The position numbers and the translations under genes are program-made. Shown in pieces: positions 2,913 to 12,660 of a DNA stretch of 35,708 nucleotides. The DNA comes from an uncultured Pseudomonadota bacterium (GTDB lineage Bacteria; Pseudomonadota; Alphaproteobacteria; Rs-D84): NCBI GenBank assembly GCA_900313105.1, contig OMPY01000002.1:1-35708 (forward strand), read 5' to 3'. The notes under the pieces were generated by a model that was given only the letters and a program-made list of their open reading frames with translations, did not search any database and was not told the DNA's origin. Positions within the stretch are counted from its first letter, which is position 1, and every line of letters begins with the position of its first letter.

Positions 2913-5900
2913 TTGAAACGTTTATCTTTTGCATTAGTAATTTTTGCATGCGTATCCGCCGCATTCGGCGCAACACGCCAAGATACAGTTGCACGTTCAG
3001 CAACGGCGCCGGCACGTGTTTCACGTGCACCACAAACAGATAATGATAACATAACAACCACGGCAACAACACGCGCCGTCACATCACGCAGCGCAACACA
3101 AAACCCCACACAACGTGGGCGCGCCGCGGTACAAACCCCAACAACAAACGCACGCGCGGCAAAACAAAGCGTAATTAGCACCGGAACCAAGGTCGCGGCC
3201 GCCACGGAAAACACGGCGGTTGACCAGGTGTGCTGGGGCAAGTTCAGCGGTTGTATGGATTCATTCTGTATGTTGGACAACGCGAACGGCGGACGTTGTA
3301 TTTGCAGTGATAAAAACGCCGAATACGACGCAATACTCCAAGAAATTCAAAACTTGGACGACCAAAGTTATCAACTTGCGACCGTCGGTGTCGAACGCAT
3401 TGAAATGGGCGACGCGGTCGATGCGGTTATGTCGAAAACCGATTCGGTGACAAAGCGCGTGACGGCGGACGCGGCAAAATCAAAACGCCAATCATTGGAT
3501 TTAAGTTCATGGAATTCGCTGGACCTGGACTTTGATGCCGACGCCGAAGACATTTTTGACTTTTCATCGGACGGCGTTTCAATTGCCAACAAAACCGGCG
3601 ACGCACTTTATCGCGCGGCGGCAAAACTTTGCAACGCACAAATTCCCGAATGCAAATCGCAATCGACATTGATGAATTTAATGTATAAACAGCGCGTCCG
3701 TTCCGATTGCACCGCGTATGAAAACAGCCTGCGCGCCGCACGCACACAAAGCGCACAAAAACTTTACGCCGCGCAAAGTGCCATGCGCGAAGCCGCATTG
3801 GAACAATATCGCAATGCGAACAAATACGACCTTGGGCAATGCACAGTGCAATTTAAACAATGTATGCAAACAACCGGTGGTTGCGGCGAAGATTTTACGG
3901 GCTGTGTCGATTTGGCGGCGCGCGCAACCGTAAATGGCACGCAAACAAAACAAAAAACAATCAAAGGCACATCATCAAAAATAAAAATTTCCGCCGAAAC
4001 ATATGATACGTTAGAGGCGAAAAAAGCCCTGTGTATGACCGTGACCCAACAGTGCGTCAACGTTCGCGACCAGGTTTGGGATGCGTTCTTGCGAGAGGCC
4101 GCACCGCAAATCAAATCTGCGGAATTGATTGTGGAATCGAACCTGCGCACATCGTGCATTTCGAATATTTCGAACTGTTTCCAAAAGGCATGCCACGACA
4201 CAATGGATCCCAATGACCCAGAGGGTTCATATGACATGTGCCTTACGCGGCCTGACACATTGCGTTCGGTGTGCAAGGTTGAAATCGACCCGTGCGAAGC
4301 GACGGAACCGGCAATTATGGACTATGTCCGTGCGCGGTTGAAATCGATGCGTGTTGATTCTTGCACCAATGAGTTTAAAGCGTGCTTGCAATCCGAAGAC
4401 CGCTGTGGCGAAGATTACACCCAATGTATTGGATTGGACACCGACACAATCGTCAAAATGTGCCCGAAGGAAAAATTAACGGGTTGCACATATGAATATG
4501 GTGATGATAAAAAAACAGTAGACCAAACACTTAAAGATATTGCCACAGGCATATTCCTGAACATTGACAACAACATGTTAACTGCATGTCAAAAGGCCGC
4601 CAATGCCGCAATGATAAAGGTCTGTGGCAGCACGGAAAATTGCGATGAAATGATTGTAGACAATGGTTTGGGTTCACGTAGTTTAGAGTATAAAATATGT
4701 GAATATCAGGGTAACAAAAACAACATCAGCATCAACTACAATCAATGTCGTCCAAATATAGATATGATTACCGATGTAGAATTAGGACGAAATTCCAGTG
4801 ACCTTGTTACCGGATCTGATGGCAATATAAATTATACACCAAACACAGAAAAACCATTTGCAGGGGTCATTGATGGTATTATATATTGGGATAGTGTCAC
4901 AATGACCAATGATGGTTTAATTAGTACCAGTGAATACTTTGATAACTTGGAACAAAAAGACAAAGACGAAGAAAATGGCCACATTGCCGAAAACAATCCT
5001 CAGCGCGGTGGCAATCGCCAAGGTAATCAAACACCTAATAGAAACAATGGTTCATCAGGTAGTGGATCATATGGTAATGGTTCAGGTGGCATGTCCAATG
5101 GTATATTATCAGGCAATGGTAGAAGAACAGATATCACAGAAGATCAAATGCATCGCATCAATGACGAATTGGCGGCTTTACAAACAAACATTCAAAACAC
5201 AATCAATGCAATCGAATCCGATCCAAAGGTTCAGTTCTGTATGAGTGGTCGTGAATTTCAAGGTTATAAAGAAATGTTAGGTGCAAAGGGCGATCAAACC
5301 TATAACAAAGCACGTTTCCCACAACTGACCGCACAAATGCGAAGGATTATATCGGAATCGGCATTATCACAAACCAAAGCGAACTACTATGCAAAGTATG
5401 ATGAATTAAACGCAAAAATGCTAAAAGATTATTCGAAGATTGCCGAACGTAAAGCCGAAATTGCCGGACAAAACAGTAAAGATCAACGTCGTGAAATTGC
5501 ACGTCAATCCTGTTTGTACATGGCAGATATGTCAACACTTGCACGTTCAGCCGAACCACCACGCAGTGCTGGGGGGATTGTTATAGGGTCAGTAATGGTT
5601 GTTGGTGGGGCAGTAGGGGCATTCTTTACTGGTGGTGCAACAACGCCCATTGCAGTGGCTGGGATGGGGTTATTGAGCAATGAAGTTAATACACCATCAT
5701 CCGCTAACGGTGACGATAAAGAACCTGATTACATGCCTCTTGTTTCATCCAAAAAAATGAATCAATGGAATTATAGAGAAACGATTACTACAACATTTGA
5801 TTGGGAAAACTTGGTTTGCCACAAATGTGTTCGTTCTACACCTTGTGCAAAAACAAGAAATCCATTGGTTGGCGACAAATATTGCGAAACATGGGGCGAA

Positions 5901-5933
5901 GAAACCGAAACCTGCACCGACACACAATTCTAA
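2913..5933 (+). CDS. Large secreted Cys-rich repeat protein
   Basis: 1006 residues of unrecognised family. The start is TTG, supported by AAGGGG seven bases upstream and by the signal peptide it opens (MKRLSFALVIFACVSAAFGA). A Thr/Ala/Arg-rich low-complexity segment follows (about 20-100), then a Cys-rich body. A motif C-x3-F-x2-C(M/L)-Q-x4-CG-E-D(F/Y)T-x-C occurs twice (near 310 and 484), and a related CWGKFSGCMDSFC stretch lies near 106. Residues 693-738 are a Gly/Asn/Ser-rich flexible region. Residues 887-922 are a Gly/Ala/Val-rich hydrophobic hairpin, and a CxxC lies near the C-terminus. From about 4500 the bases become visibly poorer in GC than in the first half, hinting at a mosaic gene. 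It has its own promoter and terminator. The shared plan with the 301 and 8107 genes suggests one surface-protein system, which is inference. Confidence 0.85.
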   Translation: MKRLSFALVIFACVSAAFGATRQDTVARSATAPARVSRAPQTDNDNITTTATTRAVTSRSATQNPTQRGRAAVQTPTTNARAAKQSVISTGTKVAAATENTAVDQVCWGKFSGCMDSFCMLDNANGGRCICSDKNAEYDAILQEIQNLDDQSYQLATVGVERIEMGDAVDAVMSKTDSVTKRVTADAAKSKRQSLDLSSWNSLDLDFDADAEDIFDFSSDGVSIANKTGDALYRAAAKLCNAQIPECKSQSTLMNLMYKQRVRSDCTAYENSLRAARTQSAQKLYAAQSAMREAALEQYRNANKYDLGQCTVQFKQCMQTTGGCGEDFTGCVDLAARATVNGTQTKQKTIKGTSSKIKISAETYDTLEAKKALCMTVTQQCVNVRDQVWDAFLREAAPQIKSAELIVESNLRTSCISNISNCFQKACHDTMDPNDPEGSYDMCLTRPDTLRSVCKVEIDPCEATEPAIMDYVRARLKSMRVDSCTNEFKACLQSEDRCGEDYTQCIGLDTDTIVKMCPKEKLTGCTYEYGDDKKTVDQTLKDIATGIFLNIDNNMLTACQKAANAAMIKVCGSTENCDEMIVDNGLGSRSLEYKICEYQGNKNNISINYNQCRPNIDMITDVELGRNSSDLVTGSDGNINYTPNTEKPFAGVIDGIIYWDSVTMTNDGLISTSEYFDNLEQKDKDEENGHIAENNPQRGGNRQGNQTPNRNNGSSGSGSYGNGSGGMSNGILSGNGRRTDITEDQMHRINDELAALQTNIQNTINAIESDPKVQFCMSGREFQGYKEMLGAKGDQTYNKARFPQLTAQMRRIISESALSQTKANYYAKYDELNAKMLKDYSKIAERKAEIAGQNSKDQRREIARQSCLYMADMSTLARSAEPPRSAGGIVIGSVMVVGGAVGAFFTGGATTPIAVAGMGLLSNEVNTPSSANGDDKEPDYMPLVSSKKMNQWNYRETITTTFDWENLVCHKCVRSTPCAKTRNPLVGDKYCETWGEETETCTDTQF

Positions 5934-6084: not shown

Positions 6085-7113
6085 ATGATTGAAAAAAACT
6101 GGATGGCTTTGATAAAGCCGAAAAAACTGAATATCACCACCGATGAACATAATCCGAACATGGCCAAATTGGTCGCGGAACCGTTGGAAAAAGGTTTTGG
6201 TCTTACGCTTGGCACGGCGTTGCGTCGCGTTCTGTTGTCTTCACTCCAAGGTTGCGCGCCACTGTATGTTAAAATCGAAGGTGTTCAACACGAATTTTCA
6301 AGTATCCAAGGCGTGCACGAAGATGTCGCGGATATTTTACTGAACCTTAAGGGTGTTTATTTCAAGGCAAATTCCGAAGGTCAGCACAAGGTTGCGTTAC
6401 ATGTGACCGGGCCGGCGGTTGTCAAGGCGGGCATGATTGAATGCACCAGTGCAATAGAGGTTATGAACCCCGACGCGGAACTTTGCACATTGGATAAAGG
6501 CGCGCAGTTTGATATGGAAATCACACTTGGCACGGGTCGCGGATATGTTCCGGCGAACGCACATGCCGATGGGTTGCCACTGGGCGTGATTCCGGTTGAT
6601 TCAATCTTTTCACCAATTTTGAATGTCGCGACCGTGGTTTCGGAAACCCGTGTTGGGCAATCAACGGACTATGACAAATTGGAAATGACCGTCAAAACAA
6701 ACGGCAGTGTCACACCCGAAGATGCAATCGCGTTCGCGGCGCGTATTTTGACCGACCAATTGACTTTGTTCATCAATTTCGAAGACCCAACGCAAATCGC
6801 GGCACCGACCGAAGAAGAAGTCGCCAAAGACGCGTTGCAATTCGATCCGAAATTGCTGAAACGCGTGGACGAACTGGAATTGTCTGTGCGTGCGAACAAT
6901 TGTTTGAAAAACGACAAAATCAACTGGCTTGGCGAATTGGTCCAAAAGACCGAGGCGGATATGTTAAAGACCCCGAACTTTGGGCGCAAGTCATTGAACG
7001 AAATCAAAATCCAATTGGAAGCGATGGGCCTTGGCCTGGGCATGGAAGTCCCGGGTTGGCCGCCGGAAAACATCGCAGAATTGGCCAAGAAATACGAAGA
7101 CCCATATAAGTAA
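6085..7113 (+). CDS. rpoA: DNA-directed RNA polymerase subunit alpha
   Basis: 342 residues, full length. The alpha dimer is the assembly platform for beta and beta'. The N-terminal domain (about 1-240) begins [15 protein letters not shown], the usual alphaproteobacterial start, and contains the assembly region [15 protein letters not shown]. The C-terminal domain (about 265-330) has [10 protein letters not shown], which carries the arginine used for UP-element DNA binding, and the helix-hairpin-helix [16 protein letters not shown]-like segment. The ribosome site is AAAAGGAAAT. It is followed by rplQ, as usual, but the pair lies on the strand opposite rpsM-rpsK and is separated from them by another gene, which is unusual. 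Confidence 0.98.
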
Positions 7114-7211
7114 AACAATTTATATGGAACCTTGTCGCGATTGTCGGTTCTTATGTAGGTCAACTACACTGCGAACCGTCAATCGCTTCCAATATCCTCA
7201 TCTAAATTGTT
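7114..7211 (+). other. Long imperfect hairpin in the rpoA-rplQ spacer
   Basis: Immediately after the rpoA stop, nested inverted repeats span 98 bases: AACAATTTA (7114-7122) with TAAATTGTT (7203-7211); GCGATTGTCGGTTC (7137-7150) with GAACCGTCAATCGC (7173-7186, one mismatch); and GTAG (7155-7158) with CTAC (7164-7167). The mRNA would form one extended hairpin. No T tract suited to a standard terminator follows. It could be an RNA processing site, a translational control element for L17, or an inserted palindromic repeat. Confidence 0.65.
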
Positions 7212-7325
7212 TTCTGTGGCAGTTTTGATGGGAATAATGTGCGTGTTGCTGAATCACTGATTTGGGGCACGAAAAGTGGTGCAATCCCGGGAAACTGGGC
7301 GGAAACAAAAATAAAGGAGTAACCG

Positions 7326-7889
7326 ATGAGACACCAAAAAGCCGGTCGCACTTTTAATCGCGACACAAATGCACGCAAGGCCTTGTTTATTGGGCTTGCG
7401 AAAAACCTGATTGAAAAAGAACAAATCAAAACAACTTTGCCAAAGGCCAAAGATCTGCGCAGTGTCGTGGAAAAATTGGTTACCCGCGCCAAGGTTGACA
7501 CCGTTGCGAACCGCCGCCTGACCGCGTCGGAATTGGGCAACGCATGCGACGCAACCGTGAAAAAATTGTTCACGGTGCTTGGGCCACGCTATGCGAAACG
7601 CCCGGGCGGATACACCCGCGTGTTAAAGGCCGGTTTCCGCTATGGCGATGCCGCACCGATGGCGATTATCGAATTTGTTGACCGCGATGTGAACGCGAAA
7701 AAGCCACAAAAACCGGAAGTTGCCGCGGCCAAGGCCGAAGAAGCGACCGCAACCGATGCGCCAAAGGCACCCAAGGCACCAAAGGCCGAAAAAACAACCA
7801 AGGCACCGGCCAAAGAACCGACGGCGAAAAAAGCCAACACAACGGCGAATAAAACCGTTGCGGTAAAACGCCGCGCCACTGGCAAGTAA
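7326..7889 (+). CDS. rplQ: 50S ribosomal protein L17 with long basic tail
   Basis: 187 residues. The first ~115 are the L17 core ([20 protein letters not shown]...), which lies on the surface of the large subunit near the exit tunnel. Residues from about 125 onward are a low-complexity Ala/Lys/Pro/Thr tail with repeated PKAPKA units. Such tails are common in alphaproteobacterial L17, though this one is long. The start is set by AAAGGAGT before ATG. It is cotranscribed with rpoA across a 212-base spacer that holds a large hairpin, and followed by a strong terminator. Confidence 0.97.
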
Positions 7890-7912
7890 TGATTGTGGTA
7901 GTTTTTTATGAT

Positions 7913-7938
7913 ACGGGCGCAATTGCGCCCGTTTTTTG
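7913..7938 (+). terminator. Rho-independent terminator after rplQ
   Basis: ACGGGCGC-AATT-GCGCCCGT (7913-7932) followed by TTTTT. The perfect 8-bp stem ends the rpoA-rplQ unit. Confidence 0.88.
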
Positions 7939-7953
7939 TTATTCCAGAGCATG

Positions 7954-8107
7954 AAGTTCCCCTTTCCTATGGAAAGGGGTCCGGCTGAACAGCCGGGGGG
8001 TATGGGTGATAAAAAACATTATTACCACTACCCCGGCGGGGGGCCCCGCCATCCGCCTGCACCTGTGGCTACGGCGCGACTTCGCCCCTTCGCCAGCGAA
8101 GGGGAAT
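7954..8107. repeat. REP-like palindromic intergenic element
   Basis: Four GC-rich hairpins in a row: CCCCTTTCC/GGAAAGGGG (7959-7979), CCGGCT/AGCCGG (7981-7996), a GGCGGGG/CCCCGCC stem (about 8035-8050) and CCCCTTCG/CGAAGGGG (8085-8104). The ends are inverted relative to each other (GTTCCCCTTT... and ...AAGGGGAAT), as in REP or MITE-like repeats. It fills the gap between the rplQ terminator and the stop codon of the convergent gene. It has no coding capacity of its own. Copies elsewhere in the genome cannot be checked here. Confidence 0.55.
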
Positions 8108-10101
8108 TACCGTCCGACATTAAATTCATCACCATAGCCGGCTACGGATTGACCGCCGATATAGCAACCTATATCTTCAAAACCTTGTTTAACCTGGGCC
8201 TTTTTGACAAGGTTCGCCGTCACAATTCCGCCAACGGTCCCCAAAACAACACCCGCAATACTGTCCGACGCAAGGCGCGCGGTGTTAAATTCGCCGTTTT
8301 CATCACGCCAAACATTCTTTTCAAACCCACCAATCGTTGCCGTTAAACCGTTAAATTTGCTGTCCAGGTCGCTTTCCAAACCCGCAACATATTTTGCCGT
8401 CCATTCACATTTGCCATTTTTGATTTCTTGGTTATCGTCACGACACACGCATTTTCCACCGCGTTCCACCGTTCCCGCAACAATGCATTTACAATTCGAA
8501 TCCATATTATCCGGATCCGAACACCTAACAGGTGTCGGCAAAGACGGCGCAATTGTCGATGGTGTAATTTCACCCGCATCCATCTGATCTTGTTGTGGCG
8601 ACATAGTACCACTTTGGTTTTCGTTTGGTTCCGTTCCAGCACGACACCAGCCCATAGAGCGACCATTCTTTTTCACCAAATAAGTTCCAGGTTGACACGC
8701 GGTCGCGGCACAAACCCGTTCATTCTTGTTCTTTTGAATACAACGCCCAGCGGTTGCATATTGTGGCAATTTGTCACCAACACAATCCGCATCTGTTTTG
8801 CACCCTTTTGCATTATCCGGTGCATCGGCCGGTGGCGGAGTTATGTTTGTCTTTTGACCGGGTATTGTCACATCAGCGACACATTTTGCACCGTCGCGTG
8901 TCATGCCTTCGGGACACAACCAATACCAACACGCACCACCATCATCAGTATATTTCGCCGCAGGCGTTATAGAATACCCCCCATTGGGATCAATTGGTTC
9001 ACTATATCCCGGGCAATACTTTATACGACATTCTTTTGACCAATGGTCATTCATAAACAAACCACGAAAACCCTGATCTGTTTCATGTTCCTTGCGCCCT
9101 TGAACACATTTTGTAATATATGGGAAATCATTGCAAAACATTTCTCCACCTATATCAACATTACGCGCCTGAATGTTAGACATCGCTTTTGATGTATGAC
9201 AGCAACTATATACCCCAATAACTGGATCATATTCACAATCTGTTTCTGAAAATGCTTTACGTCCGGCGGCAATTGCGCCACCAACCGCCCCAACAGCAAT
9301 TGCGGCCCCATACCCAATTTGACCAAGCCCAGGGATTAAATTGATAACTGCCGCAGTCCCAGCCGCCATCGCCGCACCATCGCCCGCACTGCGCGCGACA
9401 TCGCCCCAGTTTGTTTTTCTATCTTTGGGTTTTTCCGCATCGGCAAAATCCACCGCACCCACGACACCACCAAGAATCGCGAGTCCACTTCCCACAACAT
9501 TTCCACCTGTTGTTTTAGGCGATGAAGTTGTCTTTGGGGGCGTTCCAGTACCACCACCCCCGGCACCCCCGCCAGTTCCACCTGTTCCCGGTCCAAGTTG
9601 TTTTGGTGCCGACGTTGTGGTATTTGTTGTAGATGTCGCAGGTGTCTGTGTTGTAGGGGTTTTCACAATACTTTTACTGGGACCAATTTGTTTTGTTGGT
9701 GTTGTTCCACCCGTGGTCGAAGTCCCGGTCTTTGCAACATTTGGTTCATATTTGGTAACGGCCGTAGTCGTGTTTGACTTTGGAACCAACGCACCATTAT
9801 TTGTTGCGCTTGCGGATGTGGTTCCCTTGCCACTCGAACCGCCACCACCAAATCCACCACCTGGGTTAGTATTTGGTATCGGCGTTCGATTTATTTGGTT
9901 GGTCCCGTTATCCAGCGCTTTTAATATTCTATCAACAGCGGATTTAGAAAGTTGACTTTCAACCGCGCCCCCGTATGGCTGACCATCTGATAAAATTCGA
10001 TAAAAACCATTTCCCAAATCAAGAACTTCAATGAGCGCAGCATACGAATTCACAACAAATGTAATCACAAAAAAACACCCAAATAAAAATTTTTTATACA
10101 C
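8107..10101 (-). CDS. Secreted Gly/Thr- and Cys-rich protein
   Basis: 664 residues, family not recognised. I choose the GTG start at 10101 because AAGGAGG lies just upstream and because it begins a clean signal peptide (MYKKFLFGCFFVITFVVNSYA). An upstream ATG at 10134 is in frame but lies inside a terminator-like hairpin. Residues 72-200 are a Thr/Gly/Pro linker with KQ(I/L)GP repeated. Residues 201-220 and 241-285 are Gly/Ala-rich hydrophobic segments. Residues 289 to about 590 are Cys-rich, with EGF-like spacing in places. The last 51 residues hold another Gly-rich hydrophobic hairpin, a charged stretch, then CYIGG...GYGDEF. The stop lies at the edge of the repeat at 7954-8107. It is transcribed from its own promoter through a structured leader, so its expression is probably regulated. 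Confidence 0.85.
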   Translation of the reverse strand: MYKKFLFGCFFVITFVVNSYAALIEVLDLGNGFYRILSDGQPYGGAVESQLSKSAVDRILKALDNGTNQINRTPIPNTNPGGGFGGGGSSGKGTTSASATNNGALVPKSNTTTAVTKYEPNVAKTGTSTTGGTTPTKQIGPSKSIVKTPTTQTPATSTTNTTTSAPKQLGPGTGGTGGGAGGGGTGTPPKTTSSPKTTGGNVVGSGLAILGGVVGAVDFADAEKPKDRKTNWGDVARSAGDGAAMAAGTAAVINLIPGLGQIGYGAAIAVGAVGGAIAAGRKAFSETDCEYDPVIGVYSCCHTSKAMSNIQARNVDIGGEMFCNDFPYITKCVQGRKEHETDQGFRGLFMNDHWSKECRIKYCPGYSEPIDPNGGYSITPAAKYTDDGGACWYWLCPEGMTRDGAKCVADVTIPGQKTNITPPPADAPDNAKGCKTDADCVGDKLPQYATAGRCIQKNKNERVCAATACQPGTYLVKKNGRSMGWCRAGTEPNENQSGTMSPQQDQMDAGEITPSTIAPSLPTPVRCSDPDNMDSNCKCIVAGTVERGGKCVCRDDNQEIKNGKCEWTAKYVAGLESDLDSKFNGLTATIGGFEKNVWRDENGEFNTARLASDSIAGVVLGTVGGIVTANLVKKAQVKQGFEDIGCYIGGQSVAGYGDEFNVGR

Positions 10102-10301
10102 TTCTCGCCTCCTTTTTGTGCAACAAAAAACCACCGAATTGCTTCAAGTGGTTGGAGGTTAACGACTACGTTCCGAGGAAATAGTGGGCTTATTCTATAT
10201 ATTCACCGCCCTCCAACCACACGTGGTTGGAGGTGTTTTATGTCCCCGCGGACACTCGGAATCATGGGTCGTTACACCCCACCGACGGAACACCCGCCAG
10301 C
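10102..10301 (-). promoter_or_regulatory. Attenuator-like structured leader (riboswitch candidate)
   Basis: From the predicted start near 10301 the minus-strand RNA can fold in two exclusive ways. Segment 1 (10233-10223, CCTCCAACCAC) pairs with segment 2 (10220-10210, GTGGTTGGAGG). Segment 3 (10158-10148) is an exact copy of segment 1 and can also pair with segment 2. The CCAC of segment 3 is also the left arm of a terminator hairpin (right arm GTGG at 10134-10131) that ends in a U tract. Pairing 1:2 therefore allows termination, and pairing 2:3 blocks it. A closing stem (7 bp TAACGAC/GTCGTTA plus 7 bp TTCCGAG/CTCGGAA) and a small hairpin (10254-10241) enclose segments 1 and 2 like an aptamer. 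I do not recognise a known riboswitch class. It could instead be a separate ~177-nt small RNA. Confidence 0.65.
10125..10153 (-). terminator. Terminator hairpin inside the leader
   Basis: On the minus strand AACCAC-TT-GAA-GCAA-TTC-G-GTGGTT forms a stem with a GNRA-type GCAA loop, followed by six U. It sits 24 bases upstream of the GTG start and its ribosome site, as expected of a conditional terminator or the end of a small RNA. Confidence 0.7.
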
Positions 10302-10307
10302 ACGTGA

Positions 10308-10336
10308 ATTATATCATAAAACACATATGGTTGCAA
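10308..10336 (-). promoter_or_regulatory. Strong sigma70-type promoter for the leader
   Basis: Minus strand: TTGCAA (10336-10331), a 17-bp spacer and a perfect TATAAT (10313-10308). The predicted start is near 10301. It lies just beyond two tandem terminators that close the ribosomal operon, so it starts an independent transcript toward the gene at 10101. Confidence 0.85.
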
Positions 10337-10342
10337 GGATTG

Positions 10343-10366
10343 AAAAACCGGCGCAACGCGCCGGTT
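10343..10366 (-). terminator. Second terminator downstream of rpsK
   Basis: AACCGGCGC...GCGCCGGTT with a 3-base loop, followed on the minus strand by UUUUU. It is in tandem with the terminator at 10384-10412. Confidence 0.8.
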
Positions 10367-10383
10367 CCACTTACACTAACACT

Positions 10384-10412
10384 AAAAAAATCCGCCAAGG
10401 CGGATTTTTTTC
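10384..10412 (-). terminator. Terminator of the ribosomal operon after rpsK
   Basis: ATCCGCC-TT-GGCGGAT on the minus strand followed by a run of T, immediately after the rpsK stop. The A/T flanks make it usable in both directions. Confidence 0.85.
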
Positions 10413-10790
10413 TTAAACTCTACGCACTTTCTTTGGACGGCAACCGTTGTGCGGAATACGCGTTGTATCGGTAATACTTTGCACAACCAAACCGGCATTC
10501 GCCAAACCACGAACCGCAGATTCACGACCCTGGCCAATTCCGCGCATAAGGACATCGACGGTCTTCATACCCATTTCGGCAACCTTTTTGCCAACCGCGT
10601 CCGCAACAACCGTCGCCGCATACGGGGTCGATTTCTTTGCGCCCTTGAAATTATTCGCGCCCGCCGTCGCCCAGGTCAAAACCGCACCCGATTGATCGGT
10701 GATTGTGATACGCGTATTATTATTTGTGGCAACGACATGTGCAATGCCGTGCGAAACTTTTTTTACAACTTTCTTTTTATTTAATGCCAT
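10413..10790 (-). CDS. rpsK: 30S ribosomal protein S11
   Basis: 125 residues, normal length. S11 lies on the platform of the small subunit near the mRNA exit path. The sequence shows the usual core (SGAVLTWATAGANNFKGAKKSTPYAA) and the conserved C-terminal GCRPKKVRRV. The ribosome site AAAGGA lies ahead of ATG. It is the last gene of the cluster; rpoA would normally follow but lies elsewhere on the other strand. Confidence 0.98.
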   Translation of the reverse strand: MALNKKKVVKKVSHGIAHVVATNNNTRITITDQSGAVLTWATAGANNFKGAKKSTPYAATVVADAVGKKVAEMGMKTVDVLMRGIGQGRESAVRGLANAGLVVQSITDTTRIPHNGCRPKKVRRV

Positions 10791-10854
10791 TTTTGTTTTT
10801 TCCTTTGATTAGATGTCTTCAATTAACTATCGTGTTAATCTCTACCCAATTTTA

Positions 10855-11232
10855 TTATTTACCCTTGACCGCAGAACCCGCGACAACGATACGCTTACCC
10901 TTGCGCGTACGGGCATTGGTCTGTGTCCGTTGACCGCGAACCGGCAACCGGTTACGATGACGGATACCGCGATAGGTTTTCAAATCTTGCAACCGTTTGA
11001 TATTCATTGCAACTTCGCGGCGAACGTCACCTTCGACCTTGAAATTCTGTTCAATATAGTTCGAAATTTTGATAACGTCTTCGTCGGTCAAATCCTTTGC
11101 GCGCAGACCGTCTTTCAACTTTAATGCCTTGCAAATCTGTGCGGCGCGGGTTGGCCCAATGCCGTGGATGTATTGCAACGCGGCCTCGATACGTTTTTCT
11201 GTGGGTATATTTACACCTGCTATACGTGCCAT
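10855..11232 (-). CDS. rpsM: 30S ribosomal protein S13
   Basis: 125 residues, full length. S13 sits at the head of the small subunit and touches the P-site tRNA and the large subunit. The start [16 protein letters not shown] and the basic tail [18 protein letters not shown] are typical. The ribosome site is AAGGA. It is preceded by a spacer that holds a promoter (11296-11323) but not the adenylate kinase gene often found between secY and rpsM. Confidence 0.98.
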
Positions 11233-11295
11233 TTTTATTTTTCCTTTTTATTTTTTTGTTCGGACGTTTCAGCCCCCATTTTTGCCATTACGACA

Positions 11296-11323
11296 ATTCT
11301 ATACGAATCGGCGCAAAAGTCAA
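11296..11323 (-). promoter_or_regulatory. Internal promoter ahead of rpsM-rpsK
   Basis: Minus strand: TTGACT (11323-11318), a 16-bp spacer and TAGAAT (11301-11296), in the secY-rpsM gap. It would allow rpsM-rpsK to be transcribed separately. An ATG at 11287, close to the predicted start site, opens a 17-codon frame (MAKMGAETS...) that may be chance. Confidence 0.6.
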
Positions 11324-11343
11324 ACCTTTGTTTCACGCAAGTT

Positions 11344-12660
11344 TTAATTACGGAAACGACCTTTCTTTGCGGCGCCCATAACGCCATGATACTGCTTTGC
11401 AACCAAATAAGATTGCACCTGGTTCATGGTGTCAAGCACGACACCCGCAACGATTAAAACACTGGTTCCGCCAATCATCAACGGCATTCCAAAGTGCGTA
11501 TTCAAAATAATCGGCAACACGCACACGACAATCAGGTACAAAACGCCAATCGCCGTCACCCGTGATACCATGGAATCCAAGAAACTCACCGTCTGTTCGC
11601 CCGGCCGCACGCCCGGAATATAACCACCGGCATTGCGCAGATTATTACTGGTTTCTTCGGAATTGAACACGACCGCCGTTTGGAAATACGCAAAGAACGC
11701 AATCAAAATCGTGTACAAAATGATATATGACCACGCCCCATATGTAAAAAATCCCATTATATTTTGCACAACAAGATTTTCACTTTGAACGAATCGTTGC
11801 ACAAACGCCGGCAACATCATAATGGACGACGCAAACACCGGCCCCATAACGCCCGACATATTGACCTTTATCGGCAAATACGACGCGTTCGTATTCACAA
11901 CACCGTTCGCCATAACCTGACGCGGGTACAAGATTTGCACGCGACGTTGCGCCAATTCAAAGAACGCAATCAACGCAACAATTCCGACCACAAACAATAT
12001 CACCAACGCAATCATCGCCGGCGACATTTGCCCAACGGACCCAAGGGACACAATTTTCGCGACACCTTCGGGAATTTGCGCGATAATGCCCGCGAAAATA
12101 AGCAGCGATGCGCCCTGGCCTATGCCACGCGCGGTAATTTGTTCCGCAAGCCACATGACAAAAACCGTTCCACCGACCAACGCAATAATAGCCGACAATT
12201 CAAACGAAAATCCCGGATTCACAACCGCACGAACACCATTGACCGGCGCCATCACTTCCAATCCACGCACCACGGCCCAACCTTGAACCACGGCAAGCAA
12301 TACCGCCAAATAGCGTGTATATTGGTTGATTTTGATACGGCCCGATTCGCCTTCTTTGCGTAAATCATTTAGCGATTTACTGGTCGCGGTCAACAACTGC
12401 AACACGATAGATGCCGAAATATACGGGAAAATGTTCAGTGCCAACACCGACATACGCGAAAGCGACCCACCGGTGAACATATCGAACATGCCCATCATAC
12501 CACTGCCTTCGCCGGTAAACAAGTGCAACACCGCCGACGCATTTACGCCCGGCAACGGAATAAACGACCCGATACGATAGATAACCAGCGCCCCGAGCGT
12601 AAACAAAATACGCTTTTGCAAATCTGAAAGTTTCCCAAAAAACCTTGATATGAATTTCAT
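11344..12660 (-). CDS. secY: Protein translocase subunit SecY
   Basis: 438 residues, usual length. It is the channel subunit of the SecYEG inner-membrane translocon, with ten transmembrane helices. The cytoplasmic start (MKFISRFFGKLSDLQKRI), the plug-region residues after helix 1 (IPLPGVN), and the conserved loop with RPGEQT before helices 9-10 are visible. It lies in its usual place after rplO. It would export the signal-peptide proteins encoded on both sides of this cluster. Confidence 0.98.
   Translation of the reverse strand: MKFISRFFGKLSDLQKRILFTLGALVIYRIGSFIPLPGVNASAVLHLFTGEGSGMMGMFDMFTGGSLSRMSVLALNIFPYISASIVLQLLTATSKSLNDLRKEGESGRIKINQYTRYLAVLLAVVQGWAVVRGLEVMAPVNGVRAVVNPGFSFELSAIIALVGGTVFVMWLAEQITARGIGQGASLLIFAGIIAQIPEGVAKIVSLGSVGQMSPAMIALVILFVVGIVALIAFFELAQRRVQILYPRQVMANGVVNTNASYLPIKVNMSGVMGPVFASSIMMLPAFVQRFVQSENLVVQNIMGFFTYGAWSYIILYTILIAFFAYFQTAVVFNSEETSNNLRNAGGYIPGVRPGEQTVSFLDSMVSRVTAIGVLYLIVVCVLPIILNTHFGMPLMIGGTSVLIVAGVVLDTMNQVQSYLVAKQYHGVMGAAKKGRFRN

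Follow-up and report, generated by a model that had tools for sequence, protein, structure and literature searches.

A riboswitch-like leader before an exported-protein gene of the order Rs-D84 and its relationship to sRNA-Xcc1

Why should the DNA in front of a gene for an exported, cysteine-rich protein carry the same 11-mer twice and its complement once? The locus lies in a 35,708-nucleotide stretch (the whole of the DNA analysed, hereafter the window) from an uncultured alphaproteobacterium of the order Rs-D84. According to the original prediction, the single complement can pair with only one 11-mer at a time, which would make a terminator and an antiterminator mutually exclusive. Without RNA or protein data, and judging from sequence comparison, we consider it very probable that this leader is a transcription attenuator, i.e. 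a riboswitch-like cis switch of the sRNA-Xcc1 superfamily, serving the exported-protein gene.

Architecture of the leader

On the minus strand the 11-mer CCTCCAACCAC occurs at 10233-10223 and again at 10158-10148, and the complement GTGGTTGGAGG once, at 10220-10210, exactly as claimed; none of 2000 shuffles of the stretch reproduced the 11-mer twice together with its complement. Three segments are distinguished below, namely s1 (10233-10225), s2 (10218-10210) and s3 (10158-10150). The features of the locus are as follows.

10331-10336, minus: -35 box TTGCAA
10308-10313, minus: -10 box TATAAT
~10300-10121, minus: whole leader, 5' of the exported-protein gene
10282-10300, minus: P0, 5' hairpin CTGGCGG..CCGTCGG at the transcript start; varies among copies
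10266-10279, minus: hairpin A, GGG TG[TAACGA]CCC, whose loop is strand P1a; 4/4 pairs covary
10268-10274, minus: P1a TAACGAC, partner of P1b (10166-10160); two-sided changes in 6/6 pairs of P1, 97.4% of cells paired
10255-10261, minus: P2a TTCCGAG, partner of P2b (10177-10171); supported by longest helix against exchanged partners
10241-10254, minus: P3 hairpin TGTCC GCGG GGACA; two-sided changes in 5/5 pairs
10225-10233, minus: s1 CCTCCAACC, anti-antiterminator strand, pairing with s2 as helix P4; 7/8 pairs two-sided, 95.2% paired
10210-10218, minus: s2 GGTTGGAGG, shared strand; covariation with s1 and s3
10184-10209, minus: P5 hairpin with conserved internal loop GAATA / GAATAA; covariation
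10166-10184, minus: hairpin F, CTAT:GTAG, whose loop contains P2b; 4/4 pairs two-sided, 98.6% paired
10171-10177, minus: P2b CTCGGAA; supported by the P2 helix comparison
10160-10166, minus: P1b GTCGTTA; supported by the P1 covariation
10150-10158, minus: s3 CCTCCAACC, pairing with s2 (antiterminator) or donating AACCAC to the terminator; s2:s3 8/9 pairs two-sided
10124-10153, minus: intrinsic terminator AACCACTTGAA GCAA TTCGGTGGTT TTTTG; a design common to 167/197 copies
10108-10114, minus: Shine-Dalgarno AAGGAGG
8107-10101, minus: putatively controlled gene, exported Cys-rich protein of ~664 aa, GTG start at 10101

Further elements of the original prediction were recovered in place: a TTGCAA-17-TATAAT promoter spanning 10336-10308, a 7+7 bp closing stem (P1, 10274-10268/10166-10160, and P2, 10261-10255/10177-10171, with comparative support), and a GCAA-loop terminator built from the second 11-mer (AACCAC..GTGGTTTTTTG, 10153-10124) and followed by the ribosome site AAGGAGG (10114-10108). 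The gene starts directly after this terminator, an arrangement that recurs across the family, and the interval from rpsK to the leader holds two hairpins with T runs, matching the two terminators expected toward the ribosomal operon. The product is exported and Cys-rich, as had been proposed, and gave no Pfam or PHROG match; its regulation by the leader is inferred. On its own, the leader RNA folds at -72.4 kcal/mol (z = -3.5 vs shuffles).

The ribosomal operon itself is split in this region (window 6085-12660): rpsM-rpsK lie on the minus strand, the exported-protein gene comes next, and rpoA and rplQ, encoded on the plus strand, follow on its far side. Window 2913-5933 (plus strand) encodes another long exported protein rich in Cys (1006 aa, TTG start, without Pfam match).

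In an Rfam search of the window, only terminator-like chance matches were obtained near the leader. Two candidates were rejected: 6S RNA, for which the suggested search gave no Rfam match, and a T-box (bulge AGGGUGGNACCGCG, stem I with a specifier), which likewise had no Rfam T-box match and whose AGGGTGG-like letters are lost in relatives.

A dispersed family with mutually exclusive helices

A DNA search of 59 relatives revealed similar leaders throughout the genus, and a pattern search of named genomes identified the hosts as gut and termite-gut Alphaproteobacteria, including Candidatus Enterousia, a member of the GTDB order Rs-D84 with reduced genomes (PMC12306168). With covariance model R1, four copies were detected in the genome from which the window derives, and 180 of 201 Rs-D84 genomes were positive, representing 19 of 23 genera and carrying from 1 to at least 16 copies each. 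Model R2 found scattered copies in 28 of 385 genomes of the class Alphaproteobacteria (four of them from the same genus) and in two genomes, both of this genus, from a phylum sample of 299. The leader is a member of a large dispersed RNA family, not a lone leader. Copies also occur on contigs classed as viral in IMG/VR (L192, L193, L194), with phage-like genes adjoining; a BLAST search of the window leader against phages gave no match, nor did a search of the L258 element against plasmids.

Covariation was assessed in alignments of 39 copies and then of 123 copies including other orders. Since these were fitted to P1, P3, P4, P5 and F, the counts for those helices are biased toward the structure; A, P2 and s2:s3 were unfitted. 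All helices of the set A (GGG:CCC), P1, P3, P4, P5 and F covary. P1 joins the A-loop strand to the strand immediately 5' of s3, and the stem of hairpin F reads CTAT:ATAG or CAAT:ATTG across copies. P2 pairs a 5' strand with the F loop, and its sequence differs in nearly every copy while complementarity is kept (mean longest helix 7.4 bp vs 4.0 bp after exchange of partners).

The compensatory changes sought in the three segments and the closing stem were found, and the claim of exclusive pairing was borne out by covariation of both s1:s2 and s2:s3, for which none of 500 shuffles scored as high as observed and the signal is lost when the partner is shifted by 1-3 columns. For s2:s3, 97.5% of cells are paired, and double changes occur in 52 cells vs 6.5 in shuffled data. 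The fourth copy of the same genome (L171) has s1, s2 and s3 altered in concert (TTCCTGACC / GGTCAGGAAGG / CCTCCTGGCC), as do L172, L177, L185, L190 and L141. Of 115 copies compared, 98 have s2:s3 as the stronger of the two duplexes.

In the window copy, s2 and the adjoining conserved loop read GGAGGGCGGTGAATATATAGAATAAG, i.e. a Shine-Dalgarno GGAGG followed by GTG AAT ATA TTG AAT AAG, so that attenuation could in principle depend on translation of a leader peptide. This is scarcely credible, and we rejected it, because GCG replaces GTG in many copies, the frame is not conserved and the loop is swapped for a hairpin in relatives.

An ORF start supported by a ribosome site lies 32-65 nt after s3 in 154 of 199 distinct copies, confirming that the leader precedes other genes too, and a terminator built from s3 with a T run is present in 167 of 197, about 15% of copies (e.g. 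L003, L004) having no clear terminator. A -10-like hexamer lies mostly 26-31 nt 5' of the core, with exact TATAAT in 106 of 197 copies (54%) vs 4% at random positions. Given this ORF position, terminator and promoter, the element is not a free repeat but a leader that carries a promoter of its own. What comparison establishes is that the helices exist and exclude each other, that promoter and terminator are present, and that the element stands before genes.

Own promoters and terminators are also what a stand-alone sRNA gene would possess, one that stands before genes by chance and exerts its effect in trans, in the way claimed for sRNA-Xcc1. Tandem arrays of complete units could be read in the same way: five units occur in L157 (3959-5046, minus), three in L132 (5588-6133, minus) and three in L101 (2360-3001, minus), each unit retaining promoter and terminator and the last one preceding a gene. 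However, such a gene would account neither for ORF starts confined to the narrow interval past the core nor for a terminator-destroying antiterminator helix with eight of nine pairs covarying, of which it has no need. A CRISPR-like or integron attC repeat was rejected for the arrays, because their units have promoter, fold and terminator.

The downstream products are diverse, forming 57 clusters among 154. The biggest clusters are those of exported Cys-rich proteins and of small HTH-like regulators, the latter in two groups. Among the remaining products are a UvrD helicase, a GmrSD restriction enzyme, an ABC transporter, a PLD-like protein and an inner membrane protein. A signal-peptide-like N terminus was seen in 81 of the 154 products vs 23% of background ORFs. 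In preceding many disparate genes the family resembles the GEMM (c-di-GMP-I) riboswitches, one RNA class found before a large disparate gene set that includes surface and regulatory proteins (PMC7266159); unlike these, the leader has a different structure and occurs in a genus where no GGDEF domain was found in the 35 genomes searched.

Relationship to sRNA-Xcc1

The part of the original prediction that recognised no known class was only partly right. It stands for the window copy, which has no Rfam class match and gave none to RF02221 (sRNA-Xcc1) at E<=10, hence lying under the gathering cut-off of 53 bits; it fails in that the leader is a distant relative of this family. The G020 locus of the genus and copies in other taxa reach the cut-off. 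Alphaproteobacterial copy L187 is matched by RF02221 with 66.2 bits exactly over its 3' half and by R1 with 39.6 bits, other alphaproteobacterial copies being matched more weakly by RF02221. At G142:C4 and G004:C11 overlapping matches of 96.4 and 114.2 bits (R1) and 39.7 and 35.2 bits (RF02221) were obtained, and in several copies of the genus both models match the same coordinates. On this sequence evidence, by way of intermediate copies, the 3' half of the leader is homologous to RF02221.

The Rfam structure of RF02221 consists of s2:s3, P5 and F only, i.e. the antiterminated conformation of the leader. Both families have the s2:s3 closing helix, P5 with an AAUA..GAAUAA internal loop, and hairpin F; the window copy adds strand s1 and the terminator platform. 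Hairpin A, P1, P2 and P3 are missing from the RF02221 model but nevertheless occur at canonical loci. The leader is the complete form of an RNA listed in databases only in part, as a free-standing sRNA, and the family, although related to a known RNA, is unlike its annotation in extent, structure and role.

The reports on sRNA-Xcc1 describe an RNA of ~88 nt in Xanthomonas (PMC2996969), where it precedes symE in integrons (PMC12444791). Expression is reported in E. coli EDL933, and Xylella has five clustered copies ~381 nt apart (PMC12189769). It is termed a trans-acting sRNA in the title of Chen et al. 2011, as cited in PMC12444791, and the accessible portions of this literature contained no description of a cis switch role. 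Size, expression and clustering speak for the stand-alone sRNA. The gene context, however, favours cis action.

We examined 30 canonical RF02221 loci, nearly all outside Alphaproteobacteria. A strand lying 5' of the Rfam model is complementary over at least 6 bp to P1b in 28 loci and to P2b in 27 (means 7.9 and 6.9 vs 5.1 and 4.8 with other loci). Moreover, the ribosome-site region repeats the 5' strands: in 17 of the 30 loci P2b can form 6 bp or more with the downstream region, with a mean of 6.1 vs 4.35 (top of 200 permutations, 4.80). The ribosome site of the adjacent gene therefore co-varies with the RNA, locus by locus, which further reduces the standing of an independent trans-acting sRNA, an explanation that we consider quite unlikely. 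The genes downstream of canonical loci include those for Bro-N, KilA-N, P22_AR_N (P22 antirepressor), Rha and SymE. In Vibrio phage VaK, where KilA-N and antirepressor genes follow the RNA, GAGGCGTCGAAACC..CATAAGC stands upstream, GCTTATG..TTTCGA in the RNA and TTTCGAAAAAAACATAAGGTAACCAGCATG at the KilA-N gene.

The c4 antisense RNA of phages P1 and P7 is located at the 5' end of an antirepressor operon and is complementary to a downstream ribosome site. The canonical branch, and only this branch, shares both properties, and a 3' fragment excised from s2 to s3 might likewise pair with ribosome sites in trans; the reported 88-nt sRNA-Xcc1 equals this 3' half, and both the downstream complementarity of P2b and the phage VaK genes fit. 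Yet in the Rs-D84 copies, that of the window included, pairing with the ribosome site did not exceed chance (4.52 vs 4.51), no C4 match was found at Rfam-scanned loci, and the covarying 5' strands that compete for the same bases would remain unexplained. We give this antisense mechanism little chance of being correct.

A canonical sRNA-Xcc1-type locus with complementarity to the ribosome site (L228, 1501-1586) occurs in the same genus as the terminator type. In the canonical copies L232-L258, AT often stands immediately 5' of s2, the expected site of the mapped 5' end of sRNA-Xcc1, and this junction may be a processing site.

A predicted ON switch

In the attenuator that we favour, pairing of s2 with s1 would leave s3 free to form the intrinsic terminator before the ribosome site, and the gene would be OFF; pairing of s2 with s3 would prevent the terminator, and the gene would be ON. 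This second state most likely corresponds to the complete fold, with P1a:P1b and P2a:P2b formed and s2:s3 closed over P5 and F; this identity is inferred, as is its stabilisation by a ligand, ion or protein. In the window branch the complete fold would remove the terminator, control being exerted by transcription termination. At canonical loci the 5' strands and the ribosome site are alternative partners of P1b and P2b, so that the complete fold would be the ON state there too, leaving the ribosome site free, and translation otherwise appears blocked. An ON switch is predicted because the complete fold leaves the gene expressible in both branches. Since s1:s2 would form first during transcription, the gene is probably OFF by default, except where stabilisation of the fold comes early enough. 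The nested fold with a forced antiterminator (-59.0 vs -72.4 kcal/mol for the terminated form) counts against this scheme; the calculation omits P1 and P2 of the ON state, because both cross s2:s3.

The three competing segments (anti-antiterminator, antiterminator and terminator) are those of PyrR- or tryptophan-type attenuators, from which the leader differs in its two additional loop-strand pairings (P1 and P2) and in having no leader peptide and no known binding site. A conserved RNA-binding protein could stabilise s1:s2 or the complete fold in the manner of PyrR or BglG. The high diversity of downstream genes is as expected of a global regulator and the GAATA/GAATAA internal loop could serve as a protein site, but the family extends to phages and distant classes, and such a protein would thus have to be nearly universal in Proteobacteria; we regard it as possible, though improbable. 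As to known signals, neither GGDEF nor RelA/SpoT was found in 35 genomes of the genus, and the DAC domain is missing from several nearly complete RNA-carrying genomes (e.g. G012, G025), which argues against c-di-GMP, ppGpp and c-di-AMP. The last was rejected as not required.

Two riboswitch criteria, a conserved structured aptamer in a 5' leader and an expression platform with exclusive conformations, are met by the putative cis switch, and the possibility of a new riboswitch class deserves to be taken seriously, albeit without ligand data. Whether sRNA-Xcc1 and the leader constitute one widespread proteobacterial class is a more evenly balanced matter, ligand binding being untested: an ON switch with a crossing multi-helix aptamer, controlling translation of antirepressors and SymE in phages and integron cassettes, and expanded in gut Rs-D84 to control many genes, for exported proteins and small HTH regulators, as one regulon at the level of transcription.

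For 15 years this RNA family has been annotated as a free sRNA, yet it appears to represent the 3' half of a switch acting in cis. In that case the many trans targets predicted for it, in Xanthomonas and Xylella for example (PMC12189769), would have to be reconsidered, and a control point open to testing would be added for phage antirepressors and SymE. The uncultured Rs-D84 bacteria have reduced genomes (PMC12306168), and the genus tested has no enzymes for c-di-GMP or ppGpp; their global regulon would then be based on an RNA. Because the three segments covary, the mechanism lends itself to a direct test in E. coli K-12.

Some copies without a T run differ in their platform. Before an ABC transporter gene (L003, 1375-1510; L004, 1473-1605; L193, ~8420-8600), GCCTGTGT 3' of s3 is able to pair with ACACAGGC in hairpin P0, which might make these copies a translational variant. 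In the alphaproteobacterial copies L173, L174 and L175, GGAGG lies directly 3' of s3 (CCTCC), which suggests that s3 itself may sequester the ribosome site.
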